Source: Lysobacterales bacterium PRO7
GTDB taxonomy: Bacteria > Pseudomonadota > Gammaproteobacteria > Xanthomonadales > Rhodanobacteraceae
Assembly: GCA_021404785.1 (NCBI GenBank)
Contig: QWHH01000018.1
Span: 1-36,232 of the forward strand
Direction: 5' to 3'
DNA length: 36,232 bases
Shown: one piece after another, positions 18,964-36,232 of the stretch
How the letters are laid out: every line of letters starts with the position of its first letter
Numbering within the stretch: the stretch's first letter is position 1
Program-made: the position numbers and the translations under genes
The notes under the pieces: generated by a model
Databases searched by the model: none
What the model was told of the DNA's origin: nothing
Seen by the model: only the letters and a program-made list of their open reading frames with translations

Positions 18964-19048
18964 GCCCAGGTGGCGGAATTGGTAGACGCACTACCTTGAG
19001 GTGGTAGCGCCGAAAGGCGTGGGGGTTCGAGTCCCCCCTTGGGCACCA
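18964..19048 (+). tRNA. tRNA-Leu (anticodon GAG)
   Basis: An 85-nt class II tRNA with encoded CCA. The acceptor arms GCCCAGG and CTTGGGC pair with one G-T wobble, followed by A and CCA. The anticodon stem CTACC/GGTAG encloses the loop TTGAGGT, so the anticodon is GAG (18998-19000), reading CUC and CUU codons. The variable arm GCGCCGAAAGGCGT is long, as expected for leucine, and the T arm GGGGG/CCCCC encloses TTCGAGT. It corresponds to leuU, which also follows secG in E. coli. Confidence 0.98.
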
Positions 19049-19054
19049 GCAAAC

Positions 19055-19078
19055 AAACCCGCGCGAGCGGGTTTTTTT
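19055..19078 (+). terminator. rho-independent terminator after tRNA-Leu
   Basis: AAACCCGC and GCGGGTTT form a perfect stem with a GCGA tetraloop, running into a seven-T tract (19072-19078). It sits 7 nt after the tRNA's CCA and should end the tpiA-secG-tRNA transcript, so the nuo genes need their own promoter. Confidence 0.93.
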
Positions 19079-19099
19079 GTGGCCGTGGATTCCATTGCA

Positions 19100-19129
19100 T
19101 TGCGTGCGGCGCGCGGCGCGTGCGAAAAT
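19100..19129 (+). promoter_or_regulatory. candidate promoter of the nuo operon
   Basis: Between the terminator and nuoA, GAAAAT (19124-19129) with TGC directly before it forms an extended -10. TTGCGT (19100-19105) lies 18 bp upstream as a poor -35. This would give a leader of roughly 30 nt before the nuoA GTG. The location is required by the terminator upstream; the exact boxes are uncertain. Confidence 0.35.
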
Positions 19130-19167
19130 CGCCCGGCTTCGCTGCCCCGATTCGAGGTATTTCCTTC

Positions 19168-19524
19168 GTGCTTGCCGAATACCTGCCGATACTCCTGTTC
19201 CTGATCGTCGCCGGCGGCATCGGCGTGGCCCTGCTTGGCATCGGCGCGCTGCTCGGTCCGCGCAGCAAGAACGCGGAAAAATCCGACGCCTACGAATGCG
19301 GCTTCGAAGCGTTCGAAGACGCGCGCACCAAGTTCGACGTGCGTTACTACCTCATCGCCATCCTTTTCATCATCTTCGATCTGGAAATCGCGTTCCTGTT
19401 TCCGTGGGCGGTGGTGTTCAAGCAGATCGGCATCGTCGCTCTGATCGAGATGCTGATGTTCCTGCTGTTGCTGCTTTTGGGATTTGTGTACTGCTGGAAG
19501 AAGGGAGCTTTGGAGTGGGAATAA
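19168..19524 (+). CDS. nuoA: NADH-quinone oxidoreductase subunit A
   Basis: Membrane subunit of complex I near the junction with the peripheral arm. The product is 118 aa with three transmembrane helices and the conserved loop [20 protein letters not shown], whose Cys and acidic residues lie near the quinone channel. GTG at 19168 (V-L-A-E-Y-L-P) with GAGG 10 nt upstream matches the family start; the longer open frame runs back through the tRNA and terminator and is not coding. Its end overlaps nuoB by 10 bp. Confidence 0.96.
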
Positions 19525-20090
19525 CAGACACCACCGTCGAGAAAAAGCTCTTCCTCAATCCGGTTCCGACCGGTCCGGTGGAGGACATCCTGCGCACGGG
19601 CGACGACAACCCGTTGTTGCAGCGCGGCTTCGTCACCACCCAGGTCGACACCTTGCTCAACTGGGCGCGCACCGGTTCGATGTGGCCGATGACGTTCGGC
19701 CTGGCCTGTTGCGCGGTGGAAATGATGCACGCCGGTGCCGCGCGCCTGGACCTCGACCGCTACGGCGTGGTGTTCCGCCCGAGCCCGCGCCAGTCCGACG
19801 TGATGATCGTCGCCGGCACCCTGGTCAACAAGATGGCGCCGGCGCTGCGTCGCGTCTACGACCAGATGCCGAATCCGAAGTGGGTCATCTCGATGGGATC
19901 CTGCGCGAACGGCGGCGGCTATTATCACTATTCGTATTCCGTGGTGCGCGGCTGCGACCGCATCGTGCCGGTGGATGTCTACGTCCCGGGCTGCCCGCCG
20001 ACGGCCGAGGCACTGATCTACGGCATCCTGCAATTGCAGAAAAAGATCCGCCGCACCGAATCGATTGCGAAGAAGGCGAGCGGCGCATGA
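19515..20090 (+). CDS. nuoB: NADH-quinone oxidoreductase subunit B
   Basis: Peripheral-arm subunit carrying cluster N2, the last iron-sulfur centre before ubiquinone. The protein is 191 aa. The four ligands are visible as Cys65-Cys66 (L-A-C-C-A-V-E-M-M), Cys130 (G-S-C-A-N-G-G) and Cys160 (P-G-C-P-P). The start is the GTG at 19515 with AGGGAG about 7 nt upstream, overlapping the nuoA end by 10 bp; the longer open frame is non-homologous. The stop overlaps nuoC by 4 bp (ATGA). Confidence 0.97.
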
Positions 20091-20818
20091 GCGCGGATCC
20101 CGGCACGCTTGCGCAGCGCCTGAACGCGCACCTGGGCGAGAAGATCGCGGCCACGCACGAGTGGCGCGGCGAGATCATCCTTGAAATCACGCCGGAAAAC
20201 TGGCTCGCCGTGGCGCAGCACCTGCGCGACGATGCGGAGTTCCGCTTCGAGCAGCTCATCGACGTGTGTGGCGTGGATTACCTCGGCTACGGCCAGGTCG
20301 AGTGGGACACGAGCGATGTCACCTCGACCGGTTTCTCGCGCGGCGTGGAAGGCGAAAGCGCCGGCCGTTTCGACTGGGCCAGCCGTCCGCGCACCGGTGC
20401 CGGGCACAAGCGCTTCGCCGTCGTCGCGCAACTGACCTCGATCGCGAACAATTGCCGCGTGCGCCTGCGCTGCCATGCGCAAGATGATTCGCTGCCGGTG
20501 GTGCCGTCGCTGGTGCCGCTGTGGCCGATCGCGAACTGGTTCGAGCGCGAGGCATTCGACCTGTTCGGCATCGCCTTCGAAGGGCATCCGGATTTGCGCC
20601 GCATCCTCACCGACTACGGTTTCGTCGGCCATCCGTTCCGCAAGGATTTCCCGTTGATCGGCAACGTCGAGGTGCGCTTCGACGAGAAACTCGGCCGCGT
20701 GATCTACGAGCCGGTGACCAGCGTGGTGCCGCGCGTGACCGTGCCGCGCGTGCTGCGCGAGGATTCCGATCTGATGCAGGCCCGGGCCGAAGCCGCCGAC
20801 AAGTGGCGGGAGAACTGA
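20087..20818 (+). CDS. nuoC: NADH-quinone oxidoreductase subunit C
   Basis: The 30-kDa peripheral subunit that packs against NuoD and NuoB. It is 243 aa, separate from NuoD rather than fused as in E. coli. The conserved core reads [10 protein letters not shown] and [11 protein letters not shown][21 protein letters not shown]. A Gly/Ser-rich insert of about 35 residues (roughly 70-105) separates the first core strand from the rest and looks like the insert of xanthomonad NuoC. It overlaps nuoB by 4 bp and is 2 bp from nuoD. Confidence 0.96.
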
Positions 20819-20820
20819 GC

Positions 20821-22074
20821 ATGCAGGAAATCAAGAACTACACGATCAACTTCGGCCCGCAGCATCCGGCCGCGCACGGCGTGTTGCGCCTCGTGCTCGA
20901 GATGGATGGCGAAACCGTGGTGCGCGCCGATCCGCACATCGGCCTGCTCCATCGCGGCACCGAAAAGCTCGCCGAGTCCAAGCCGTTCAATCATTCGATC
21001 GGCTACATGGACCGGCTCGATTACGTGTCGATGATGTGCAACGAGCACGCCTACGTGCGCGCCATCGAAAACCTGATGGGCGTCGCGCCGCCGGAGCGCG
21101 CCCAGTATATTCGTACACTTTTTGACGAAGTCACGCGCATCCTCAACCACCTGATGTGGATCGGCTCGAACGCGCTCGACCTCGGTGCGATGGCGGTGTT
21201 CCTCTACGCGTTCCGCGAACGCGAGGAACTGATGGATGTCTACGAGGCGGTGTCCGGCACGCGCATGCACGCCACGTACTACCGCCCCGGCGGCGTGTAT
21301 CGCGACCTGCCCGGGCAGATGCCGCAGCACAAGGAATCGCGCTGGCACAAGGGCGAGGACCTCAAGCGTCGCAACGCCCGCCGCGAAGGCTCGATGCTCG
21401 ATTTCCTCGACGATTTCGCGGACGATTTCCCGCATCGCGTCGACGAGTACGAAACCCTGCTCACCGACAACCGCATCTGGAAGCAGCGCACGGTCGGCAT
21501 CGGCGTGGTCGCGCCCGAGCAGGCGCTGGCCTGGGGCATGACCGGGCCGATGCTGCGCGGCTCGGGCATCGAATGGGACCTGCGCAAGAAGCAACCCTAT
21601 GCGATGTACGACAAGATAGATTTCGACATTCCGGTCGGCGTCAACGGCGATTGCTACGACCGTTACCTCGTGCGCGTTGCCGAGATGCGCCAATCGACAC
21701 GCATCGTCAAGCAATGCGTGGCCTGGTTGCGCGCGAATCCCGGCCCGGTGATCGTGCAAAACTACAAGGTCGCGCCGCCGCATCGCGAGGAAATGAAGGA
21801 AAGCATGGAGGCGCTGATCCATCATTTCAAATTGTTCAGCGAAGGCTATTGCGTGCCGGAAGGCGAGACCTACGCCGCGGTCGAGGCGCCGAAGGGCGAG
21901 TTCGGCTGTTACCTCGTATCCGATGGCGCAAACAAGCCGTTCCGTGTGCACCTGCGCGCGCCGGGCTTCGCGCATCTGTCGTCGATGGACGCGATCGTGA
22001 AGGGCCACCTGCTCGCCGACGTCGTCGCCATGATCGGAACCTACGACGTGGTGTTCGGAGAAATCGACCGATGA
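20821..22074 (+). CDS. nuoD: NADH-quinone oxidoreductase subunit D
   Basis: The 49-kDa subunit, related to the large subunit of NiFe hydrogenases, forming much of the quinone-binding cavity with NuoB. It has 417 aa. [13 protein letters not shown] near the N-terminus carries the conserved His loop facing the quinone head group, and H-R-G-T-E-K-L, M-C-N-E-H-A-Y and R-x-H-L-R-A-P-x-F-x-H-L-S follow in the expected order. The hydrogenase metal cysteines are absent, as in all NuoD. It overlaps nuoE by 4 bp. Confidence 0.98.
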
Positions 22075-22598
22075 AAGCGACCGGACACTACACGCAAGTC
22101 AAGCATGTCGACCCGCAGGTCGCGCTGAGTGCGGACACGCGCGCGCACATCGACCATTGGGCGGCGAAGTTTCCGCCGGATCGAAAACGCTCGGCACTGA
22201 TCCAGGGCCTGATCGCGGCGCAGGAGCAGAATGGCGGTTTCCTGACCGACGAACTCATCGCGGCGGTGGCGAAATATCTCGACCAGCCGGCCGTGTATGC
22301 GTATGAAGTCGCGACGTTCTATTCGATGCTGGAAACACATCCGGTCGGCCGCAACAACGTCGCCGTGTGCACGAACATCAGTTGCTGGCTGAATGGCGGC
22401 ATGGACATCCTCAAGCATTGCGAGAAAAAGCTCGGCATCAAGGCCGGCGAGTCGACGCCGGATGGCCGTGTGTACCTGAAGAAAGAAGAGGAATGCCTGG
22501 CCGCCTGCTGCGGCGCGCCGATGATGGCGGTGAACGGGCATTACCACGAGCACCTGACACCCGAGAAAGTTGACAAGATTCTGGACGAGCTCAAGTAA
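22071..22598 (+). CDS. nuoE: NADH-quinone oxidoreductase subunit E
   Basis: The 24-kDa thioredoxin-like subunit holding 2Fe-2S cluster N1a next to the FMN site. The 175-aa protein has the four ligands Cys100 and Cys105 (C-T-N-I-S-C) and Cys142 and Cys146 (C-L-A-A-C). The N-terminal helical part ([18 protein letters not shown]) is typical. It shares ATGA with nuoD; nuoF starts 4 bp after its stop. Confidence 0.97.
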
Positions 22599-22602
22599 CC
22601 CC

Positions 22603-23913
22603 ATGGCATACGGACCCGCACCGCAGGAACATCAGGTCGTCTACACCACGTTGCACTTCGACAAACCGTGGTCGATGGACAACTACGTGCAAACCGGCGG
22701 CTGGCAGGCGTGGAAGAAGATCCTCGCCGAAAAGCCCGATCCGGCGACCATCATCGACGAGTTGAAGAAATCTTCGCTGCGCGGCCGCGGCGGCGCGGGC
22801 TTTCCCACCGGCCTGAAGTGGAGCTTCATGCCCAAGGGCAGCATGCAAAAGTATATTTTGTGCAATTCGGACGAATCCGAACCGGGCACCTGCAAGGATC
22901 GCGACATCCTGCGCTACAACCCGCATGCGGTGATCGAGGGCTTGGCCATCGCCTGCTACGCGACCGGTTCGACCGTTGCCTACAACTACCTGCGCGGCGA
23001 GTTCCACCACGAACCGTTCGAGCATTGCGAGGAAGCGCTCAAAGAGGCTTACGCCGCCGGATTGCTCGGCAAGAATATTCAGGGCAGCGGCATCGACGTC
23101 GACATCCACAATGCTCTGGGCGCTGGCGCCTACATCTGCGGCGAGGAAACCGCGCTGATGGAATCGCTCGAGGGCAAGAAAGGTTGGCCGCGCTTCAAGC
23201 CGCCGTTTCCGGCCGGCTTTGGCTTGTACGGCAAGCCGACGACGATCAACAACACCGAAACCTACGCCTCGGTTCCGGCAATCTTGCGCAAGGGCGCGGA
23301 GTGGTTTCTCGCGCAGGGCAAGCCGAACAACGGCGGTCCGAAAATTTTTTCCGTGTCCGGTCATGTCAACAAGCCGGGCAATTACGAGATCAAGCTCGGC
23401 ACGCCGTTTGCCGATCTGCTGGCGATGGCCGGCGGCGTGCGCAACGGGCATAAATTGAAGGCGGTAATTCCCGGCGGCTCGTCGATGAAGGTGTTGCCGG
23501 CCGACGTGATGATGGAATTGACCATGGATTACGACGCGATCGGCAAGGCCGGATCGGGCCTGGGCTCGGGCGCGGTGATCGTGATGGACGAAACCACCTG
23601 CATGGTGCGCGCCTGCGAGCGCATCAGTCAGTTCTACCATATGGAATCGTGCGGCCAGTGCACGCCCTGCCGCGAAGGCACGGGCTGGATGCATCGCCTG
23701 CTCATGCGCATCGTCGCCGGCAAGGGCACGCCCGACGACCTGCATCGCCTGAAAGCCGTCGCAGGCCAGATCGAAGGCCACACCATCTGCGCATTCGGCG
23801 AAGCCGCCGCCTGGCCGGTGCAGGCCTTCCTGCAACGTTACTGGAACGAGTTCGAATACTACGTCGAGCACGGCCATTCGATGCTGGACGAAAAACTGGG
23901 AGTCGCGGCATGA
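22603..23913 (+). CDS. nuoF: NADH-quinone oxidoreductase subunit F
   Basis: The 51-kDa subunit where NADH is oxidised. It binds NADH, FMN and cluster N3. Residues 60-72 ([13 protein letters not shown]) and 172-183 ([12 protein letters not shown]) are the nucleotide and flavin loops. N3 ligands are Cys350, Cys353 and Cys356 ([11 protein letters not shown]) plus Cys396. The length of 436 aa is typical. The ATG at 22603 is preferred over an in-frame ATG at 22570 inside nuoE. It overlaps nuoG by 4 bp. Confidence 0.98.
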
Positions 23914-26267
23914 GCGCAGCTCCAACCACGCCGAATACTGCACCGGACCTTGTGAACATCGAGATCGACGGGAAGGCACTTCAGGTGCCGAAGAATTCGA
24001 TGATCATCCAGGCCGCCGATGCGGCCGGCATTCCGATTCCGCGTTTCTGCTACCACAAGAAGCTGCCGATCGCGGCAAATTGCCGCATGTGCATGGTCGA
24101 GACGGAAATGAACGGCAAGGCTGTGCCGAAGCCGCAACCGGCCTGCGCGACGCCGGTGATGGAAGGCATGAAGGTCAACACGCAGTCGATGCGCGCGCTG
24201 TCCGGCCAGCGCAACGCGATGGAATTCCTGTTGATCAATCACCCGCTGGATTGCCCGGTCTGCGACCAGGGCGGCGAGTGCGAATTGCAGGATGTCTCGC
24301 TCGGTTATGGCCGTTCGGTCAGCCGCTTCACCGAACGCAAGCGCGTGGTTCCGGACGAAGACATCGGCCCGCTCGTTGCCACCGAGATGACGCGCTGCAT
24401 CCACTGCACGCGCTGCGTGCGCGTGCTCGGCGATGTCGCCGGCACCTACGAATTCGGCGACATGGATCGCGGCGACCGCCATGTCGTCGGCACCTATATC
24501 GGCCGGCCGCTGGTGAGTGAAATCTCCGGCAACGTCATCGACGTGTGCCCGGTCGGCGCGCTGACCAACAAGGTGTTCCAGTTCAAGGCGCGCGCCTGGG
24601 AACTGATCGCGCGCGAATCCATCGGTTATCACGACGCGCTTGGCTCCAACTTGTGGCTGCACACGCGTCGCGGCGAGGTGTTGCGTACCGTGCCGCGCGA
24701 CAATGAAGCGATCAACGAATGCTGGCTGTCGGATCGCGACCGCTACTCGCATGAAGGTTTGTACGCTGCGGATCGCGCGACGAAACCGCTTGTGCGCAAG
24801 AACGGCGAGCTCGTCGAAGTGTCGTGGGACGAAGCCATTGCGTTCGTCGCCGATGGCCTGAAAAAATCCGGCGGCGATCTCGGCGCGCTGGTCGCACCGC
24901 TGGTGTCGAGCGAAGAAGGATTCCTGCTTGCGCAGATCCTGCATGCGCTTGGCAGCGACTCCATCGATCACCGCCTGCGCACGCTGGATTTCGCCGACGG
25001 CGCGCCGGTTACCGCGTTCGAGATGCCCGTTGCCGACGTCGAGAAAGCACGCGTCATCGCGTTGATCGGCAGCAATCCGCGCCACGAGATGCCGCTGCTC
25101 GCACAACGCATCCGCAAGGCGTGGAAGGCCGGCGCCAGGGTTTACGCCATCAATCCGCTGGATTTCGATTTCAATTTCGAGCTCGCCGGCAAGACCATTG
25201 CCACGCCATCGGCGCTGGTCGATGCGGTACTGCGCCTCGCCAAAGCCGCCTACGACGCCGGGCATTTGCCGGACGGCGAACTCGCGCAGGTCTTGTCTGG
25301 CGTGAGCGCGGACGATGCCGCGCGATCGCTGTTCAAGGCATTATCCGAGGCGTCGTCGAAGGTCTTTATTCTCGGTGAATCCGCCGCGCAGCATCCGCAG
25401 GCGTCGGTGTTGCGCGCAGCCGCGCGCTTCGCCGCAAAAGCGGCTGGCTGTGCGTACAACGAGATTCCTTCCGGCGCGAACGATATCGGTCTCGCGCGCG
25501 CGGGCGCACAGCCGCAAGGGCAGGGCAAGACCGCCGCTGCGATATTGGCGCAGCCCCCGAAACATTTGATCATTTATCAGGCCGGTTCGCAGGACACGTC
25601 ATCGTCAGCGGCGTTCGACGCGGCGCGCAGCAATGCGCAATTCTGTGTGTACATGGGTTCGTTCGCGTGCAGCGGCGTGAAGCGCACCGCGCATGCGGTA
25701 TTGCCGATCGCGCTGCCGCCGGAATCCGACGGCAGCTACGTCAATGTCAACGGCGTCGTGCAGACGCTGAAGGCTGGCGCGCGCGCGCCGGGCGATGCAC
25801 GTCCGGGTTGGAAAGTCCTGCGCGCACTCGGCGCGGCACTGGGCGTGGCCGGTTTCGACTTCACCGAATTTGCGCAAGTGCGCGACCTGATCGCGCCGAA
25901 GCTTGGCGCGAAATCCACGATGCCGCATACCGGCAAGCTGGCGTCGCGTGCGCCGACGGTTGCGGGTCTGCAGCGCATCGCCAGCGTGCCGATCTATCGC
26001 ACCGATCAGGTGCTGCGCCGCGCGCCTGCACTGCAATCGCATCCGTTGACCGGCAAGGCAAGCGTGACGCTCAATCCCGAAGACGCGCTCGCGCTGGGTC
26101 TTGCGCAGGACGCGTCAGCGAAAATTTCCGGCAATGGTGCCGAGGTGACGTTGCCGGTGGCGATTTCGCGCAACATTCCGAAAGGTGCCGCTTGGATTCC
26201 GGCGACCTGGCCTGAAACCCGTGCGCTGCCGCCGATGGGCACGCCACTGACCGTGACGAGGGCCTGA
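23910..26267 (+). CDS. nuoG: NADH-quinone oxidoreductase subunit G
   Basis: The 75-kDa peripheral subunit that relays electrons, 785 aa. The ligands of 2Fe-2S N1b are Cys47, 58, 61 and 79; of N5, His111 with Cys115, 118 and 124; of N4, Cys163, 166, 169 and 213. The long C-terminal part is a molybdopterin-oxidoreductase-like domain without cofactor function in complex I. The extra Cys cluster (N7) found in E. coli NuoG is not visible after N4, where the sequence runs [14 protein letters not shown]. It shares ATGA with nuoF and is 2 bp from nuoH. Confidence 0.97.
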
Positions 26268-26269
26268 GC

Positions 26270-27325
26270 GTGTTCGATCCCGTACGCAACTGGTTCCTCG
26301 GCTTCGGCGACCTCGGCCTTGTCGTGTGGCTGGTCATTCTGATCTTGTGCATTGCCGTGCCGGTGATCCTCGCCGTCGCCTTTTACGTGTGGTGGGAACG
26401 CAAGGTGCTCGGCTGGATGCATGTGCGCATGGGGCCGAACAGTGTCGGCCCTGCGGGCCTGGCGCAAACCTTCGCCGACGTGTTCAAGCTGTTGTTCAAG
26501 GAATACCTGCTGCCGGCCAAGTCGAGCAAGCTGCTGTTCGTGCTCGCGCCATTGATCGCGCTGGTTCCGGCGTTCGCCGCGTGGGCGGTGATCCCGTTCG
26601 ACCAGCAAGTCGTGTTGTCCAACGCGAATGCCGGATTGCTGTACCTGCTCGCGATGACCTCGATGGGCGTGTACGGCATCATCATCGCAGGCTGGGCCTC
26701 GAACTCGAAGTACGCGATGCTCGGCGCGATGCGTTCGGCGGCGCAGGTGGTCTCCTACGAGATCTGCGCCGGCATGGCCCTGGTCGGCGTGCTGATTTGC
26801 GCGGGCAGCCTGAACATGACCGATATTGTCAACGCGCAATCCGGCGCGTACGGCATTTTCTCGTGGTTCTGGCTGCCGCTGCTGCCGCTGTTCGTGATCT
26901 ATTTCGTCTCAGGCGTCGCTGAAACCAATCGTCTGCCGTTCGACATGGCCGAGGGCGAATCGGAAATCGTCGCCGGGTTTCACGTTGAATATTCGGGTGC
27001 CCCGTTCGCGGTGTTCTTCCTCACCGAATACGCGAACATGATCCTGATTTCCTTCCTCGCCTCGGTGCTGTTCCTCGGCGGCTGGCTGTCGCCGTTTCCG
27101 GAAAGCTGGCCGCTGGTCGGCATTGCCGGATGGTGGTGGCTGTTCGGCAAGGCTTTCTTCTTCGCCTTCCTGTACCTGTGGTTCCGCGCCGCGTTCCCGC
27201 GCTATCGCTACGACCAGATCATGCGCCTGGGCTGGAAGGTGTTCATCCCGATCGCGCTGGCCTGGATCGGCGTCGCCGGCGTGCTCGTGTACTTCGGCTG
27301 GTTCGGTTTGGGAGGCGCACGATGA
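26270..27325 (+). CDS. nuoH: NADH-quinone oxidoreductase subunit H
   Basis: Membrane subunit that joins the proton-pumping arm to the quinone cavity. It is 351 aa with eight or so transmembrane helices. The conserved loop [20 protein letters not shown] and the earlier W-W-E-R-K and R-x-G-P-N motifs are intact. The GTG start at 26270 has GAGGG 8 nt upstream. It overlaps nuoI by 4 bp. Confidence 0.97.
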
Positions 27326-27810
27326 GCCGCGTGATCCGCTACATCAAGAGCCTGTTCCTGATCGAGCTGCTCAAGGGCCTGGCCCTGACCGGCAAGTACA
27401 TGGTCAAGCCGAAATACACCGTACGCTATCCGATGGAGACGATTCCGCGCTCGAATCGTTTTCGCGGCCTGCACGCATTGCGCCGCTACCCGAATGGGGA
27501 AGAACGCTGCATCGCCTGCAAATTGTGCGAAGCGGTTTGCCCGGCGCTGGCGATCACCATCGATTCGCACAAGCGCGAGGATGGCACGCGCCGCACCACG
27601 CGCTACGACATCGACCTGTTCAAGTGCATCTATTGCGGCTTCTGCGAGGAGTCCTGCCCGGTCGATTCGATCGTGCTGACCGATGTGCTGGAATACCATT
27701 TCGAGAAGCGCGGCGAAAACGTCATCGACAAGCCGAAGCTGCTCGCAATTGGCGACCGCTTCGAATCGCTGATCGCCGCCGCGCGCATGCAGGACGCGCC
27801 GTACCGCTGA
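27322..27810 (+). CDS. nuoI: NADH-quinone oxidoreductase subunit I
   Basis: The 23-kDa ferredoxin-like subunit with clusters N6a and N6b, passing electrons to N2. In 162 aa, two 4Fe-4S motifs are complete: Cys63, 66, 69, 73 ([12 protein letters not shown]) and Cys102, 105, 108, 112 ([12 protein letters not shown]). An N-terminal amphipathic helix ([14 protein letters not shown]) would lie on the membrane. It shares ATGA with nuoH; 13 bp separate it from nuoJ. Confidence 0.98.
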
Positions 27811-27823
27811 GGATGCCACGACG

Positions 27824-28423
27824 ATGAGCCTGATCCTTTTCTATGTCTTCGCCGCCATCCTCGTGCTCGCCGCGCTGGGCGTGATCGCGGTGAAGAACTC
27901 CGTGCACGCGGCGCTGCTGCTGGTGCTGTGCTTCTTCACCACATCGGCGCTGTGGCTGCTGATCCAGGCCGAATTCCTCGGCATCGTGCTCGTGCTGGTC
28001 TACGTCGGCGCAGTAATGGTGCTGTTCCTGTTCGTGGTGATGATGCTCGACATCAAGATCGAACCGCTGCGCGAAGGTTTCATCCGTTACCTGCCGATCG
28101 GCATTCTGGTCGCGGCGGTGATGCTGGTCGAAATGCTGCTGCTGATTGGCGTGAAGAACCTGCAGGTAGGGCCGCCAGTCGATCCTTCGGGCGCTTCCAA
28201 CACGGCGTGGCTCGGGCAGGCGCTGTTCACGCGCTTCCTGCTGCCGTTCGAGGTCGCCGCAATCATCCTGACTGTCGCGGTCGTCGCGGCGGTGATGCTC
28301 ACCCTGCGCAAGCGCAGCGGCGTGCGCTACCAGAATCCGTCGCAACAGGTGGCGGTCAAGGCCAGCGAGCGCATCCGCATCGTCAAGATGCCCAGCTCGC
28401 CGAAACCCGAGGTCGCGCCATGA
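27824..28423 (+). CDS. nuoJ: NADH-quinone oxidoreductase subunit J
   Basis: Membrane subunit of 199 aa with five predicted transmembrane helices. The family signature [17 protein letters not shown] contains the flexible helix 3 region that lines the proton path. The C-terminal tail (from about 165) is basic and cytoplasmic. GAGG upstream supports the ATG at 27824. It overlaps nuoK by 4 bp. Confidence 0.96.
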
Positions 28424-28740
28424 TCGCTTCCGGTCAAATCACGCTTGCGCATTTCATCGTGCTCGGCGCGGTGCTGTTCTGCATCTCGGTCGCCGGCATT
28501 TTCATCAATCGCAAGAACTTGATCGTGCTGCTGATGGCGATCGAACTGATGCTGCTTGCGGTGAATATCAACTTTGTCGCGTTTTCGCGCTACCTCGGCG
28601 ACGCGGCCGGGCAGGTGTTCGTGTTCTTCATCCTGACCGTGGCGGCGGCCGAGTCCGCGATCGGACTGGCGATTCTGGTGACGTTGTTCCGCAATCGCGC
28701 GACGATCAATGTCGGCGAAATGGATGAATTGAAGGGGTAA
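28420..28740 (+). CDS. nuoK: NADH-quinone oxidoreductase subunit K
   Basis: Small antiporter-like membrane subunit, 106 aa, three transmembrane helices. Helix 2 carries a conserved Glu in [11 protein letters not shown], and helix 3 another acidic residue in [13 protein letters not shown]; both are proton-path residues in this MrpC-like family. It shares ATGA with nuoJ. It is followed by the only large gap in the operon (174 bp), filled by palindromic repeats. Confidence 0.97.
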
Positions 28741-28749
28741 AAGAATTTC

Positions 28750-28781
28750 GTCATTCCGGCCATGGATTGGCCGGAATCCAG
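28750..28781 (-). repeat. REP-like palindrome, unit 1 (inverted orientation)
   Basis: GTCATTCCGGCC, a 7-nt loop and GGCCGGAATCCAG make a 9-bp perfect stem (28753-28777). The flanks GTCATTCC and GGAATCCAG are the reverse complement of units 2 and 3. It belongs to the widespread dispersed palindromes with CTGGATTCC/GGAATGAC ends. Confidence 0.85.
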
Positions 28782-28815
28782 GCGGCAGGAAGCCACCGCG
28801 ACGGACGATCAACAA

Positions 28816-28843
28816 CTGGATTCCAGCTTTCGCTGGAATGACG
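28816..28843 (+). repeat. REP-like palindrome, unit 2
   Basis: CTGGATTCCAGC, TTTC and GCTGGAATGACG: an 8-bp perfect stem (28820-28839) with a TTTC loop. It has the same orientation as unit 3 and the opposite one to unit 1. In the mRNA it would form a stable hairpin between nuoK and nuoL. Confidence 0.87.
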
Positions 28844-28875
28844 CGCAAAAGGAAGGCGAGCAAGAGCTAAAGACA

Positions 28876-28903
28876 CTGGATTCCGGCTTTCGCCAGAATG
28901 ACG
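28876..28903 (+). repeat. REP-like palindrome, unit 3
   Basis: CTGGATTCCGGC, TTTC and GCCAGAATGACG: the same layout as unit 2 with one stem mismatch (28880-28899). It ends only 11 nt before the nuoL start codon, so the repeat edge makes up the upstream context of nuoL. Confidence 0.87.
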
Positions 28904-28914
28904 AGCAAAAATAG

Positions 28915-30915
28915 ATGAAATTGGATTCGACAATTCTGCTCCTTATCGCCCTCGCGCCGCTCGCCGGCGCGCTGGTCGCGGGCCTGTTGCGCAACCAGAT
29001 CGGCCGCGTCGGCGCGCACAGCGTCACCATCGCCGGAGTTGGTCTGAGCTGCGTGTTGTCGTTCTACGTGTTGTACCAACTGGTCTGGGGTGGGGCGCCG
29101 ACCTACAACGAGAACGTCTACACCTGGTTCCAGGTCGGTGATTTCTCCACGCATGTCGGATTCATGATCGACCGGCTCACCGCACTGATGATGGTGGTCG
29201 TCACTTTCGTTTCGCTGTGCGTGCACGTCTACACCATCGGCTACATGGCTGACGATCCCGGCTACCAGCGTTTCTTCAGCTATATCGCGCTGTTCACGTT
29301 CTCGATGCTGATGCTGGTGATGGCGAACAATTTCTTCCAGTTGTTTGTTGGCTGGGAACTGGTCGGACTCGTCTCCTATCTTTTGATCGGATTCTGGTTC
29401 AAGAAGCCGAGCGCGATCTTCGCGAACCTGAAGGCCTTCCTCGTCAACCGTGTCGGCGATTTCGGCTTCATCCTCGGCATTGCTGGCGTGCTGTATTTCT
29501 TCCACACGCTCGACTACCAGAGCGTTTTCGATCACGCGAACATTCTCAACGGCAAAACCCTCTTGATCTGGGGATCGACGCCGTGGTCGGCCGCGACCGT
29601 GATCTGCCTGTGCCTGTTCGTCGGCGCGATGGGCAAGTCCGCGCAGGTGCCGCTGCATGTGTGGCTGCCGGATTCGATGGAAGGCCCAACCCCGATTTCG
29701 GCGCTGATTCACGCGGCAACGATGGTAACCGCCGGCATCTTCATGGTCGCGCGCATGTCGCCGCTGTTCGTGCTGTCGGACACGGCGCTTTCCACCGTAC
29801 TCGTGATCGGCGCGACGACCGCGTTCTTCACCGGACTTGTAGGCATCGTGCAGAACGACATCAAGCGCGTGGTTGCGTATTCGACGCTGTCCCAACTTGG
29901 CTACATGACGGTCGCGCTCGGCGCCGGGGCATTCGGCGCCGGCATCTTCCATTTGATGACGCACGCGTTCTTCAAGGCGTTGCTGTTCCTCGGCGCGGGC
30001 TCGGTCATCATCGCCATGCACCACGAGCAGGACATGCGCTACATGGGCGGCCTGCGCCGTTACATGCCGATCACCTGGATCACGATGTGGGTCGGCACGC
30101 TGGCGTTGGTGGCTGCACCCGGTTTCTCGGGCTTTTATTCGAAGGACGCGATCATCGAAGCTGCGCACGAATCCACGCGCTGGGGTTCGGGCTACGCCTA
30201 CTGGTGCGTCCTGCTCGGCGCCTTCGTCACCGCGCTGTACAGCTTCCGCCTGCTGTACATGACCTTCCACGGCAAGGAACGTTTCGTTGTCGAACACGGC
30301 GTGCATCACGGACACGATCATCATCACGATCCCGGCCATCTCGCGCACGCGCCGCACGAATCGCCGTGGGTGGTGACGGTGCCGCTGATCCTGCTCGCGA
30401 TTCCGTCGATCGTCATCGGCTGGATGACGGTTGGCCCGATCCTGCACGGCGATTATTTCGGCGCCGCGATCCGCACTATCGGCGAGCACGGGCACGAAGC
30501 ATTCGCAGGTTCGTTTGCGACCATGCTCGATGGGTTCAAGGCGCCGCCGTTCTGGATGGCGTTCGCCGGTTTCGCGGTCGCGACGTACGTCTACCTGTTC
30601 AATCCGGCGCTGGCGGATCGCGCGAAAAAAGCGCTGCACCCGCTGTGGAACCTGCTCGACCACAAGTTCTACGTCGATGAGTTGTACCAACTGGCGTTCG
30701 CGCGCGGCGGTTTTGCGCTCGGCCGCGGTTTGTGGAAGGGCGGCGATACCGGCGTGATCGACAATATCCTGATCGACGGCACGTCGGCCGCCGTCGGCCG
30801 CACCGCTGCCGTGGTGCGCTGGATCCAGTCCGGCTATCTGTACAGTTACGCGTTTGCAATGATCCTTGGCCTCGTCGTGCTGCTCGGCGGGTTATGGTGG
30901 GTGGTTCGAGTCTAG
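28915..30915 (+). CDS. nuoL: NADH-quinone oxidoreductase subunit L
   Basis: Distal antiporter-like proton-pumping subunit with the long lateral helix, 666 aa and about 16 transmembrane helices. Conserved parts include L-F-V-G-W-E-L-V-G-L-V-S-Y-L-L-I-G-F-W, G-K-S-A-Q-V-P-L-H-V-W-L-P-D-S-M-E-G-P-T-P, H-A-A-T-M-V-T-A-G and V-A-Y-S-T-L-S-Q-L-G-Y. A loop at about 459-482 has ten His in 24 residues. The site upstream of the ATG (GACGAGCAAAAATAG) is a poor ribosome-binding site and directly follows repeat unit 3. nuoM begins 18 bp after the stop. Confidence 0.97.
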   Translation: MKLDSTILLLIALAPLAGALVAGLLRNQIGRVGAHSVTIAGVGLSCVLSFYVLYQLVWGGAPTYNENVYTWFQVGDFSTHVGFMIDRLTALMMVVVTFVSLCVHVYTIGYMADDPGYQRFFSYIALFTFSMLMLVMANNFFQLFVGWELVGLVSYLLIGFWFKKPSAIFANLKAFLVNRVGDFGFILGIAGVLYFFHTLDYQSVFDHANILNGKTLLIWGSTPWSAATVICLCLFVGAMGKSAQVPLHVWLPDSMEGPTPISALIHAATMVTAGIFMVARMSPLFVLSDTALSTVLVIGATTAFFTGLVGIVQNDIKRVVAYSTLSQLGYMTVALGAGAFGAGIFHLMTHAFFKALLFLGAGSVIIAMHHEQDMRYMGGLRRYMPITWITMWVGTLALVAAPGFSGFYSKDAIIEAAHESTRWGSGYAYWCVLLGAFVTALYSFRLLYMTFHGKERFVVEHGVHHGHDHHHDPGHLAHAPHESPWVVTVPLILLAIPSIVIGWMTVGPILHGDYFGAAIRTIGEHGHEAFAGSFATMLDGFKAPPFWMAFAGFAVATYVYLFNPALADRAKKALHPLWNLLDHKFYVDELYQLAFARGGFALGRGLWKGGDTGVIDNILIDGTSAAVGRTAAVVRWIQSGYLYSYAFAMILGLVVLLGGLWWVVRV

Positions 30916-30933
30916 ACCAGGGACGATAACGAC

Positions 30934-32448
30934 ATGACTTCCGATTCCATCCTGCTTTCGCTGTTGATCTGGCTGCCCATTGCCGGCGGTGTATTCGTTT
31001 CGTTTGTCGGCAGTACGAACGCAGCACGCGCGCGGTGGCTCGCGCTGATCGTTTCCGTCGTTATTTTCGCGGTCAGCATCCCGTTACTCACAGGTTACGA
31101 TGCCGTGGCCGGGACGATGCAGTTCCAGGAACACCACGTCTGGATCGCCGCGATCAACGCGAACTACCATCTCGGCGCGGACGGCATTTCCATCGCCCTG
31201 ATCGTGCTGACCACTTTCGTCACTCCGCTGGTCGTGCTCGGCGCGTGGGACGCCGTGCATGAGAAGGTCAGCCAGTACATGGCAGCATTCCTTGTGCTCG
31301 AAGGCCTGATGATCGGCGTGTTCGCGGCCATGGATGCGCTGCTGTTCTACGTGTTCTTCGAGGGCATGCTGATTCCGATGTTCATCATCATCGGCATCTG
31401 GGGCGGACCGCGCCGCGTCTATGCGACGTTGAAATTCTTCCTGTACACGTTCTTCGGCTCGATCTTCATGCTGATCGGGCTGATCTATCTCTACCTGCAC
31501 GCGCACACCTGGGATCTGGCGCAACTGGCGGCATTCCATCTGTCCGCGACCGAGCAGTCGTGGCTGTTCTTCGCCTTCCTGCTCGGCTTTGCCATCAAAG
31601 TGCCGATGTGGCCGGTGCACACGTGGTTGCCGGACGCGCACGTCGAGGCGCCGACAGGCGGTTCGGTGATCCTGGCCGCGATCATGCTGAAGATCGGCGG
31701 CTACGGGTTCATCCGCTTCTCGCTGCCGATCGTGCCGGACGCGAGCCAGGAATTCGCGTGGCTGATCATTGCACTGTCGATCATTGCGATCATCTACGTC
31801 GGCTATGTCGCGCTGGTGCAGGAGGACATGAAGAAGCTGATCGCGTATTCCTCCGTCGCGCACATGGGCTTCGTCACGCTCGGCCTGTTCATCGTGTTCG
31901 CGCTGATGCGCTCGACCGGCAACACGCAGGCGGCGTACCTGGGCGTGCAGGGCTCGATGGTGCAGATGATCTCGCACGGCTTCGTCTCCGGCGCGATGTT
32001 CACCTGCGTCGGCGTGCTCTACGAGCGCATGCACACGCGCATGATCGCCGACTACGGCGGCGTGGTGAACACGATGCCGTGGTTCGCGGCGTTCTGGGTG
32101 CTGTTCTCGATGGCCAACTGCGGCTTGCCCGGAACGAGCGGTTTCGTCGGCGAATTCATGGTGATCCTGGCGAGCTTCGCGATGAATCCGTGGATCGCCG
32201 CCGGCGCTGCGTTCACCCTCATCATCGGCGCGGCCTACACACTGTATCTGGTCAAGCGCATCATCTGGGGTGACGTGACCAACGACCATGTCGCCAAGTT
32301 GAAAGACATCAATCCGCGTGAAGCGCTGGTGCTTGGCCTGTTCGCCGCCGGCGTGCTGGTTCTCGGCGTGTGGCCGGAACCGCTCACGCACCTGATGGAT
32401 GCGTCGGTGAAACACATCGTCGATCAGTTGTTGGTCGTGAAGATTTGA
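30934..32448 (+). CDS. nuoM: NADH-quinone oxidoreductase subunit M
   Basis: Antiporter-like proton-pumping subunit, 504 aa, about 14 transmembrane helices. It shows the family motifs F-Y-V-F-F-E-G-M-L-I-P-M-F, A-I-K-V-P-M-W-P-V-H-T-W-L-P-D-A-H-V-E-A-P-T-G-G-S, L-K-I-G-G-Y-G and I-A-Y-S-S-V-A-H-M-G-F. The essential Glu and Lys residues of the half-channels are present. CAGGGA lies upstream of the ATG. It is the last nuo gene in the window: nuoN, which normally follows directly, is not present in the 3.8 kb to the window end. Confidence 0.97.
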   Translation: MTSDSILLSLLIWLPIAGGVFVSFVGSTNAARARWLALIVSVVIFAVSIPLLTGYDAVAGTMQFQEHHVWIAAINANYHLGADGISIALIVLTTFVTPLVVLGAWDAVHEKVSQYMAAFLVLEGLMIGVFAAMDALLFYVFFEGMLIPMFIIIGIWGGPRRVYATLKFFLYTFFGSIFMLIGLIYLYLHAHTWDLAQLAAFHLSATEQSWLFFAFLLGFAIKVPMWPVHTWLPDAHVEAPTGGSVILAAIMLKIGGYGFIRFSLPIVPDASQEFAWLIIALSIIAIIYVGYVALVQEDMKKLIAYSSVAHMGFVTLGLFIVFALMRSTGNTQAAYLGVQGSMVQMISHGFVSGAMFTCVGVLYERMHTRMIADYGGVVNTMPWFAAFWVLFSMANCGLPGTSGFVGEFMVILASFAMNPWIAAGAAFTLIIGAAYTLYLVKRIIWGDVTNDHVAKLKDINPREALVLGLFAAGVLVLGVWPEPLTHLMDASVKHIVDQLLVVKI

Positions 32449-32469
32449 ACTGACTCAGGGCCGTTTGCC

Positions 32470-35400
32470 ATGGATTTTTACAATCGCATGCGAGCTTGCA
32501 AGGTCGGCGTGTTCCGCTTGCTATTGTGTCTCTGTGGATTGATGTTTGGGCAATCCGCTTTTTCGCAGATCGCGCACAACTGTCCAGCAGGGACTGTTCC
32601 TCTGATCGGAGGCGGTGGACCTGAGTTGAGTTTCAGTGGCAAACCATATTGCTGGACCGGTCTTCCGCAAACTAATGTTTTTGGCAAAGCGTTTTCGTCA
32701 GCTGTGGCGTGGGGCTCGGCCGTTCAGCAAGCCTGTGACGGATCCGTGCATGGGACGACAGTTCAATGGCTGAGTGGTCCGTATCCGTGTGACTCCGGCA
32801 GCGCAGTTTGTATGTGGGGTTCCGCTTGGGGAGGAGATATCCCTGATCCAGATATCAACGATCCTAGCGCTGCGGACGGTAATATTTCCTGTGTGAGCGG
32901 CTACTTCGTACTAAACCCTCAAACCCCCAATACAGGCCCTCAATGCCCAAATTGCGGAGACCCAATCAATCCAGGTGATGGCAACGAGTATCATTCTGAG
33001 ATCGATTATCAGGCACCGGATTCCCGGTTATCTTTTCGCAGGACTTTTAATAGCTCGTCGACCGTTCAGGGAAGCTTCGGGGCAAATTGGCAGCACAATT
33101 TCTCCAGCAAGATCGTTAACACTATTTCGCTGCTCTCTGCTGCGCAGCTAGTGGAAACACTGTTCTCCTCGCCCCAACTGACCCCGTCCTCCGCATGTAC
33201 GACAGGTTGGAGCCAGATTGCCGCTTCCTCTGCCTATCCAACAGCGACAGCCACATTTTCTGGCGGAGTTTGCCAGTTATCGAACGGGGTCATACTTCCG
33301 GTCTATAGCACGAATATGAGTGCAGCTTGGACGAATGTGCCAGGGGTATCTGCGGCAGCAGCCGTCGTTCGGCCAAACGGGCGTATCGAAACATTTACGT
33401 GCGCTAATGGAACCTGTTCGGGTAGATCGAACGTGCCGTTAGCTCTCTCGGCCAGCGCGAACGGATTTACCCTGACCGATGAACACAGCAATACCGAATC
33501 GTACTCGACATTGGGTGCCCTGTCCTCGGTCACTGATCTCGATGGATATAAGCAATCATTTGCATACAACAGTGACGGCACACTGAGCACGATTTCGGAC
33601 AATCGTGGCAGGCAGATAACGCTCTCGTATACCAATGGCACTCTGACTGGTCTAACGCTGCCTGACAGCAAAACGATTTCTTATGGTTACGATTCTTACA
33701 ATCGGCTTTGGGCAGTGACGTACCAAGACAGTAAGAAACGAACCTACGCCTACACCAACAAGCAATTCCCTTCATTGCTTACGAGCGTCGTTGACGAGAA
33801 CCAAAGCACCTACGCCACGATTGGCTACGATTCTCAAGGCCGGGCTAGTTCCAGCATTCTAGGAGATATTGCTGACAGCACTTCCATTGAGTACAACAGT
33901 GATGGCAGCGCTACCGTCACTGACTCGCTGGGTGCAGTGAGAACTTACGGCTATCAGCAGATTCAAGGCCGTGCCGCGAATGACTCCATTACGGGCCAGC
34001 CGTGCGATCACTGCGGCAAAGCGGGAACCGGTTACGATCCCGTAGGCTATTTGCAATCCACTATAGACTTCAATGGCCGGGTCACAACCCACACCTATGA
34101 CGACACGCGCGGTCTCGAAACGCAGCGTGTCGAAGCCGTTGGCACAACCGGGCAGCGCACCACGAATACTGTGTGGGATGCTAATTTCCGCGTCCCCGAC
34201 CAGCGCAGCGTGGTCAATGCTGGCGGCGTTACCGAATCGCTGACCAATTGGGCCTACAACACGCGCGGCCAGACCTCAGCCCGTTGTGAAGTCGACCCGG
34301 CCGTCAGCGGTGCATCGAGCTACACGTGCGGCGCATCCGCGAACGCACCGACCGGCGTGCGCCAGTGGAGCTACACCTATTGCGAACAGACCGGCGTCAC
34401 TGCCGGCACCTGCCCGCTGGTCGGCTTGCTGGTGAGCACCGATGGCCCGCGCACGGACGTTTCCGACGTTACTACCTATACGTACTATCAGACTACCGAT
34501 TTGTCCGGCTGCTCGACGCTCGGCGCAGCCTGCCACTACTTGGGCGACCTGTACCAAGTGACGAACGCGCTTGGCCAGGTATCGACCTACGTCAGCTACG
34601 ACAAGAACGGCCGTGTAACCCGCCAGCAAGACGCCAACGGCGTCTACACCGACATGACCTACCACCCGCGTGGCTGGCTGCTTACGCGCACAGTGCGCGC
34701 CAATGCGAACGGCATGCCGAACTCATCGTTGGATGCGACGACGACGTTCGCCTACGACAACGTCGGCAACGTCACCGAGATCACGCAACCAGACGGCGCA
34801 TACCTTTCCTATGGCTATGACGCCGCGCATCGGCTGACCGACATCACCGACAACGCCGATGACCACATCCACTACACGCTGGATGCCGCCGGCAACCACA
34901 TGAACGAGAGCACTTACGATCCGTCGAGCACGCTCAAGCGCTCGCTGTCGCGCCAGTACGATCAACTCAACCACCTTCTCAAGACCCTCAATTCATCCAG
35001 CGTCGCGGTGCAGACGTACCAGAATCCGGTCGATGCGGCGCCCGCCGGAATCACCTACACCGACGGCTACGACGGCAACGGCAATGCGATCTATTCGGTG
35101 GATACAAACGGCGTTGGCACCGAGCAGCAGTACGATCCGCTCAATCGTTTGATGAAGACGCTACAGGATCATGCTGGTACGGGAACAACCAAGGATACGA
35201 CCACGCAGTACGCCTACGATGCGCGCGACAACCTGCGCAGCGTCACCGATCCGGATAATCTCGTCACGAACTACACCTACGATGGGCTGAACAACCTTAC
35301 CCAGCTGCAAAGCCCGGACACCGGCACGACCACGTATGGGACGATCACGCAGCCCGGCTACGACGCCGCCAGCAACCGGCTCATGCAGACGGATGCGAAC

Positions 35401-36232
35401 GGCATCACGACGACGTACAGCTACGATGCGCTCAATCGTCTTACCGGCATCGCGTATCCGACCACGAGCCTGAACGTTACCTATGCCTACGATGTGCCGG
35501 CAACGGGTTGCTACAACATCGGGCGGCTGACAAAGATCACCGATAGTTCAGGCAGCACGACCTATTGCTACGACTTGCGTGGCAATGTGCTGTCCAAGAC
35601 GCAGGCCACCGCCGATGGTTCGGGATATTTTACGCTGCAATACCAATACACTCTTGCCGATCGGCCAGCGCAAATGACCTATCCGGACGGCATGGTGGTG
35701 TCGTACGGGCGCGACAGCGTCGGCCGCGTGACGTCGGTCAGCTACAAGCCGTTCGCCAATGCACCCACATCCACCGCGATCGTCAGCAATGTCAGCTACT
35801 ATCCTTTCGGTCCCGCCAACAAGATCACCTTCGGCAACGGCAGGACGCTGACGAAGAGTTACGATCAGGATTACGCCATCGGCGGCGTGGCCAGTTCCGA
35901 TTTGAAAGGATTGCAGATCGGAGCGCAGGTGGATGCGGTGGGTAACTTGGTCAACAGCAGAACGCCAGTTGGCGCCAGCATACCCACGCAGCAGTACCAA
36001 TACGATCCATTGTACCGGCTCACCAACGTGCAGAACGGCAATGGGACATCGCTGCTCGGATTCACCTACGATGCCACCGGCGACCGGCTGAGCAAGACGC
36101 CGCAGGGGCAAAGCGCACAGAGTTACGCCTATTCATCCGGCACGCACCGGCTTGCGAACGTGGCCGGCACCGCGCGTGGCTACGATGCCAACGGCAACAC
36201 CACGCAGATCGGCGGCACCGCTTTCAGCTTCG
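32470..36232 (+). CDS. Sec-exported RHS/YD-repeat protein (3' end outside window)
   Basis: One frame stays open from the ATG at 32470 to the window end: 1254 codons, no stop, incomplete. The product starts with a signal peptide (R-L-L-L-C-L-C-G-L-M-F-G, cleavage near S-A-F-S), a Cys-rich N-terminal region, then C-P-N-C-G-D-P-I-N-P-G-D-G-N-E-Y with D-Y and R-T-F-N-S, the DUF6531-type entry to RHS proteins. Many YD repeats follow from about residue 340 (Y-N-S-D-G-T-L, Y-D-S-Y-N-R-L, Y-D-A-L-N-R-L, Y-D-A-T-G-D-R-L). No PAAR domain is seen. RHS shells usually enclose a variable C-terminal effector, which would lie beyond the edge. The first ~1.5 kb is lower in GC than the rest. It lies 21 bp after nuoM with no terminator between, so read-through from nuo is likely. 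Confidence 0.93.
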   Translation, partial: MDFYNRMRACKVGVFRLLLCLCGLMFGQSAFSQIAHNCPAGTVPLIGGGGPELSFSGKPYCWTGLPQTNVFGKAFSSAVAWGSAVQQACDGSVHGTTVQWLSGPYPCDSGSAVCMWGSAWGGDIPDPDINDPSAADGNISCVSGYFVLNPQTPNTGPQCPNCGDPINPGDGNEYHSEIDYQAPDSRLSFRRTFNSSSTVQGSFGANWQHNFSSKIVNTISLLSAAQLVETLFSSPQLTPSSACTTGWSQIAASSAYPTATATFSGGVCQLSNGVILPVYSTNMSAAWTNVPGVSAAAAVVRPNGRIETFTCANGTCSGRSNVPLALSASANGFTLTDEHSNTESYSTLGALSSVTDLDGYKQSFAYNSDGTLSTISDNRGRQITLSYTNGTLTGLTLPDSKTISYGYDSYNRLWAVTYQDSKKRTYAYTNKQFPSLLTSVVDENQSTYATIGYDSQGRASSSILGDIADSTSIEYNSDGSATVTDSLGAVRTYGYQQIQGRAANDSITGQPCDHCGKAGTGYDPVGYLQSTIDFNGRVTTHTYDDTRGLETQRVEAVGTTGQRTTNTVWDANFRVPDQRSVVNAGGVTESLTNWAYNTRGQTSARCEVDPAVSGASSYTCGASANAPTGVRQWSYTYCEQTGVTAGTCPLVGLLVSTDGPRTDVSDVTTYTYYQTTDLSGCSTLGAACHYLGDLYQVTNALGQVSTYVSYDKNGRVTRQQDANGVYTDMTYHPRGWLLTRTVRANANGMPNSSLDATTTFAYDNVGNVTEITQPDGAYLSYGYDAAHRLTDITDNADDHIHYTLDAAGNHMNESTYDPSSTLKRSLSRQYDQLNHLLKTLNSSSVAVQTYQNPVDAAPAGITYTDGYDGNGNAIYSVDTNGVGTEQQYDPLNRLMKTLQDHAGTGTTKDTTTQYAYDARDNLRSVTDPDNLVTNYTYDGLNNLTQLQSPDTGTTTYGTITQPGYDAASNRLMQTDANGITTTYSYDALNRLTGIAYPTTSLNVTYAYDVPATGCYNIGRLTKITDSSGSTTYCYDLRGNVLSKTQATADGSGYFTLQYQYTLADRPAQMTYPDGMVVSYGRDSVGRVTSVSYKPFANAPTSTAIVSNVSYYPFGPANKITFGNGRTLTKSYDQDYAIGGVASSDLKGLQIGAQVDAVGNLVNSRTPVGASIPTQQYQYDPLYRLTNVQNGNGTSLLGFTYDATGDRLSKTPQGQSAQSYAYSSGTHRLANVAGTARGYDANGNTTQIGGTAFSF

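Follow-up and report, generated by a model that had tools for sequence, protein, structure and literature searches.

An RHS module probably inserted between nuoM and nuoN of the complex I operon in Lysobacterales bacterium PRO7

We found that, in this species, the short spacer separating nuoM from nuoN has very probably received an RHS module oriented in line with transcription. Complementary RHS parts, native nuo flanks, an intact nuoN, an empty site in relatives and a low GC content in much of the module can all be read from the sequence. The window, which is the whole stretch of DNA analysed, comprises the entire contig C19 (36,232 bp) of a genome of 2.81 Mb in 19 contigs with 99.5% completeness (G000), and the RHS gene is still open at the contig end. 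The features on C19 and on a second contig, C18, are as follows.

19039..32448, + strand: nuoA to nuoM, in order (NCBIfam subunit models; the first frame reaches upstream of the likely nuoA start)
30934..32448, + strand: nuoM, 504 aa, last complex I gene before the probable insert (TIGR01972, 1.5e-183)
32449..32469, + strand: 21-bp spacer, left boundary of the probable insert; in relatives, nuoN stands at about this point
32470..36231, + strand: 5' part of the probably inserted RHS gene, a frame of 1254 aa that runs off the contig end, with a putative Sec signal, DUF6531 and RHS/YD repeats
36232: contig end inside the RHS core; the remainder is assigned to C18, - strand
C18:159523-160200, - strand: end of the RHS core and tip (TIGR03696; HELLHQMGIPH)
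C18:159029-159514, - strand: candidate immunity gene, 161 aa, signal-like start, named for its position behind the RHS tip
C18:157461-158921, - strand: nuoN (NF004442)

The two sides of the RHS module

The original prediction described nuoA to nuoM as complete and in order, and on the plus strand NCBIfam models indeed matched every subunit from A to M (A-C, E-H; D, I, J, K; L, M). The nuoA matches were strong (8e-37) yet under the curated cut-offs. The gene 21 bp behind nuoM was correctly recognized as RHS, with nuoM ending at 32448 and the RHS frame starting at 32470. The Pfam search matched RHS_repeat (PF05593, 6.9e-48) in 11 stretches as well as DUF6531, and the NCBIfam search matched YD_repeat_2x (TIGR01643, 2.3e-24). 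The N-terminus of the RHS protein looks like a putative Sec signal peptide when read by eye. The earlier wording of a Sec-exported RHS protein thus held for the family, and its export part is a prediction from this signal-like start. The statement that no terminator lies between nuoM and the RHS gene agreed with a terminator scan of the 21-bp spacer, which gave none.

The RHS gene had also been said to stand in the place of nuoN. An RHS frame does lie directly behind nuoM, but the missing nuoN is partly an effect of the contig end: nuoN is absent to the right of the RHS gene in the window because C19 ends there. The DNA downstream of 36232, where nuoN was to be looked for, could not be read on this contig, and nuoN was found instead on C18, where the terminal part of an RHS gene precedes it. 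At the end of C19 the repeats were short and diverged, like RHS repeats generally, and gave no cause for the contig break.

A search of the genome with PF00361 gave four antiporter-like proteins, namely NuoL and NuoM on C19, one protein on C18 and one on C12. The protein on C18 is an intact NuoN of 486 aa, scoring 680.2 bits with NF004442 against a cut-off of 523. The second explanation first offered, that nuoN was lost or moved, is therefore not supported: its loss was rejected, and the gene keeps its native stretch downstream. The C12 gene is followed by a gene for a DabA inorganic-carbon transporter, and both stand behind a divergent LysR regulator (L020, G000:C12, 14290-19321).

Between the start of nuoN and the end of C18 there are 1,280 bp. 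Reading inwards from that end, the last 225 RHS codons, the candidate immunity gene, a 107-bp spacer and nuoN follow one another on one strand. The end of the RHS core was matched by TIGR03696 (9.1e-22), and the sequence DPYGL, corresponding to the core motif DPxGL, precedes a tip of 140 aa. The candidate immunity gene begins 8 bp past the RHS stop. Downstream of nuoN there is a tRNA-Met, followed by frames that we take, by eye, to be rimP and nusA. This downstream stretch is the same as in two congeners, G008 and G011.

Much of the module is below its surroundings in GC content, its ends above all. The values were 0.608 for nuoM and 0.624 for nuoN, compared with 0.53 for the RHS 5' part (first 885 nt), 0.584 for the core and 0.488 for the core on C18. 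On the right side, the GC content was 0.44 in the tip, 0.422 in the candidate immunity gene and 0.402 in the spacer before nuoN.

A probable single insertion and its alternatives

Comparison with the two congeners points to a single insertion. G008 is the closest relative in NuoM (96.0% amino acid identity over 503 residues), and its alignment block with C19, ending at 32443, is contiguous with its block for C18, which begins at the nuoN start, the two being 18 bp apart. In G011, the same blocks lie 27 bp apart, and the block shared with C19 stops at 32448. Within G000, the N-terminal RHS part matched one place, the end of C19, and the C-terminal part likewise one place, the end of C18. Since the RHS parts occur only at these two contig ends and the G008 blocks are contiguous, the RHS module most likely entered the nuoM-nuoN spacer, the first of the two explanations originally proposed.

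The size of the missing piece was estimated from the RHS genes of relatives: of eight loci examined, seven contained both pieces, representing six distinct genes, and here the intervening stretch is 318 to 402 bp long. C19 and C18 would accordingly meet inside one RHS gene with ~0.3-0.4 kb unsequenced, and the insert would be ~3.78 + 0.3-0.4 + 1.28 kb, roughly 5.4 kb, part of it unsequenced. The pieces on C19 and C18 were kept separate in the analysis.

It is also conceivable, albeit unlikely, that the insert is larger and that displaced RHS tips and immunity genes are arrayed in the gap, only the last pair being visible. Displaced tip arrays are known at RHS loci, and the assembly broke at this point even though the searches gave no further RHS copy. 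However, the missing piece is 318-402 bp long in the six distinct homologous genes, and a simple gap therefore suffices.

A wrong join of the RHS gene to nuoM at 32449-32470 had been named as a possible refutation. Both contigs do break in the RHS gene, and the junctions are known from assembled contigs rather than from reads. However, an assembly error would require two independent misjoins, at the end of nuoM and at the start of nuoN, involving complementary RHS parts in the right orientation, and a second RHS match to these parts was not found in the assembly. We consider such an error extremely improbable.

A genuine rearrangement would leave a similar picture if two RHS genes had recombined, so that the parts on C19 and C18 came from different genes and nuoN was really separated from nuoM. 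Recombination at RHS genes is known, and the join between C19 and C18 falls in the unsequenced stretch. Nevertheless, only one N-terminal and one C-terminal part were found in the assembly, and their flanks correspond to both sides of the ancestral nuoM-nuoN junction. One insertion explains both flanks, so a second RHS gene is not needed, and the rearrangement appears very improbable.

We examined how common the junction is among relatives. In the congener set of 16 other genomes, three were uninformative (G007 without a match, G009 with nuoL and nuoM only, and G010 with nuoL only), and all 13 informative genomes carried nuoM and nuoN adjacent on one contig at 11 to 84 bp, counted from the last aligned nuoM codon to the first aligned nuoN codon. 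The suggestion that nuoM followed by RHS might be the ordinary gene order of the genus was thus ruled out.

A draw of 148 genomes from the family (completeness at least 90; G000 and nine of these congeners were among them) yielded 145 nuoM-nuoN pairs on a single contig, in 144 genomes, with a median distance of 55 bp between the model matches. The pair of G000 lies on two contigs, and G116, G139 and G153, in which nuoM did not reach the threshold, do not enter the distances. All but two of the pairs (143/145) fell within 141 bp, the exceptions being G037 with 319 bp and G107 with 2,363 bp. Among the best 80 of at least 599 named nuoM loci, 79 had an adjacent nuoN and one ended at a contig end; 77 of these 79 showed distances of 0 to 399 bp, and two showed -1 and -6 by extrapolation. 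Most likely, then, the insertion is real and, of the species examined, confined to this one; the module is of a known kind and its location is unusual.

G107, a genome of another genus, has a different insert of ~2.3 kb between nuoM and nuoN (L126, G107:C9, 3371-5525), which encodes a methyltransferase (PF13489) and an exported-looking protein of 326 aa, with a GC content of 0.51-0.52 against 0.66-0.67 for the nuoM and nuoN beside it. The 319 bp of G037 (L127, G037:C21, about 1884-2201) was exceeded by one of the other 144 pairs.

The N-terminal 294 residues of the RHS protein had matches in 54 of 234 genomes (G000 included), mostly over DUF6531 only, and the RHS part of the window was matched in 8 of the 16 congeners, with long matches in 5. 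By their listed coordinates, none of the congener matches adjoins nuoM. Of five congener homologues inspected, four had signal-like starts and differing ends, and the fifth was a frame without a start. The congener G002, whose nuoM and nuoN have an intact junction, carries a long RHS gene (L130, G002:C9, 13622-18658) on the far side of secG, ~3.8 kb away from nuoA.

A candidate toxin and a candidate immunity gene

RHS polymorphic toxins are already known, and HExxHxxGxxH is the metzincin signature. The translated tip on C18 carries HELLHQMGIPH, which we take to fit this motif. The tip gave no family at cut-off in Pfam and NCBIfam (Astacin at E 0.089 and CpaA at E 0.092), and a comparison with PDB sequences gave no match up to E 1; the protease reading of the tip consequently rests on the motif. 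The tip was also absent from the 233 other family genomes (0/233), as expected for a polymorphic tip. We give about even chances to the reading that the RHS gene with its zinc-metalloprotease-like tip encodes a protease toxin and that the small gene behind it is the cognate immunity gene.

In such a system, the RHS protein would leave the cell by Sec, the tip would attack other cells as a protease, and the small protein, itself exported, would protect the producer outside the cytoplasm. Delivery by a type VI secretion system (T6SS) was considered and is not supported: the sheath family PF05591, the one T6SS family searched, had no match in the genome, and PAAR had no match in the N-terminal part of the RHS protein.

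The survey PMC3482391 names several HExxH metallopeptidase tips that typically occur with RHS repeats. The gene resembles the RHS polymorphic toxins of that survey, which include toxins exported by the general route, in its RHS repeats, its Rhs-associated core, its variable tip, the small gene behind the tip and its signal-like N-terminus. It differs from those toxins in its location between nuoM and nuoN and in having a tip without a family at cut-off.

A functional analogy is offered by PMC6899460, in which a periplasmic metallopeptidase effector is neutralised by a periplasmic immunity protein. By analogy with this effector/immunity pair, the small exported gene became the candidate immunity gene. 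VgrG2b and Tpe1, whose immunity proteins are located in the envelope, are similar in the HExxH of the tip and the exported-looking small neighbour, which makes a periplasmic site of action plausible. In contrast to VgrG2b and Tpe1, which are T6SS cargo in this source, no T6SS sheath gene was found here, and the likeness drawn is one of motif and neighbouring gene.

The candidate immunity protein had four distant homologues (25-33% identity) in 4 of the 233 other genomes, at L140 4258-4752, L141 1793-2269, L142 3763-4239 and L143 4047-4526. These four genes resemble single-gene integron cassettes, with attC-like sites on both sides in three of them and on one side in L141. No RHS-like frame was found near them by eye in the fetched stretches. 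As the homologues adjoin attC sites and not RHS genes, the immunity role is assigned by position only.

The attC-like sites beside these homologues, some of which were used to build our attC model, raised the idea that the module or the immunity gene entered as an integron cassette at a secondary site. However, neither boundary of the insert was matched by the model. The best hits were at chance level, with E 2.9 inside the RHS gene (33172-33212, - strand) and E 2.9 on C12, and on C18 it reached E 8.3, far from the insert. As a control, L140-L143 yielded 36 matches with E no higher than 1, including the model's own sequences, and 7 other loci yielded 0; the sites outside its training were those in L141, L143:3979 and L140:4747. 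A half-attC suspected behind the candidate immunity gene was not borne out by the model either. With the boundaries negative, integron insertion was rejected as highly improbable.

Expression and significance of the probable insertion

The 21-bp left spacer is too short for a usual promoter. In the window part, 1 promoter-like site was found against a shuffled mean of 2.0, and 2 terminator-like sites against 3.3; in the C18 part, the corresponding values were 0 against 2.0 and 3 against 3.7. The single terminator-like site on the plus strand is weak and lies within the RHS gene (33015-33028). Such sites are not in excess over the shuffled sequences, which makes read-through from nuo into the RHS gene and onwards to nuoN plausible and the simplest interpretation. 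It is fairly likely, judging from the sequence, that the RHS gene is co-transcribed with the nuo operon in this way. For nuoN, transcription would then either run on through ~5.4 kb of inserted DNA or begin at a promoter within it.

We compared the constraint on nuoN with that on its neighbours. Between G000 and G008, nuoN had 90.9% identity and nuoM and nuoL had 96.0% and 94.7%; the dN/dS of nuoN was 0.103, about twice that of nuoM (0.058) and nuoL (0.048). Between G000 and G011, the three genes were alike (nuoN 0.098, nuoM 0.091, nuoL 0.120), as they were between G008 and G011 (0.126, 0.105 and 0.142, respectively). Constraint on nuoN over the whole span is clear. Some relaxation of nuoN in this species is neither shown nor excluded, because nuoN is less conserved only relative to G008 and the three genes are alike relative to G011.

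The operon is like the usual complex I operon in the standard order of nuoA to nuoM, in its intact nuoN and in a downstream stretch as in G008 and G011. It differs in that an insert of roughly 5.4 kb, by our estimate, parts nuoM from nuoN. In the listed titles and opening lines of abstracts on Rhs proteins (their export, islands and metallopeptidases), on nuoM/nuoN and on nuo insertions, no RHS gene in a nuo operon was named. The unusual part is the place of the RHS module, RHS polymorphic toxins being known in themselves.

A broader and quite unlikely proposal combines two ideas. In this family, the nuoM-nuoN spacer may be a site that tolerates the arrival of foreign genes for surface or antagonism functions, such as the RHS module here and the methyltransferase and exported-looking protein of G107. 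At the same time, the module may use the nuo promoter, so that toxin output follows respiratory demand, and with nuoN downstream a polar or imprecise loss of the module would cost the cell complex I and thereby entrench the toxin.

The insertion raises the question of whether a core respiratory operon can accommodate a weapon and continue to produce the subunit encoded after it. If the co-transcription is true, antagonism would be coupled to respiration with no dedicated regulator. If it is false, the locus would clearly exemplify an RHS module that settled at a new site and did not destroy its neighbours.
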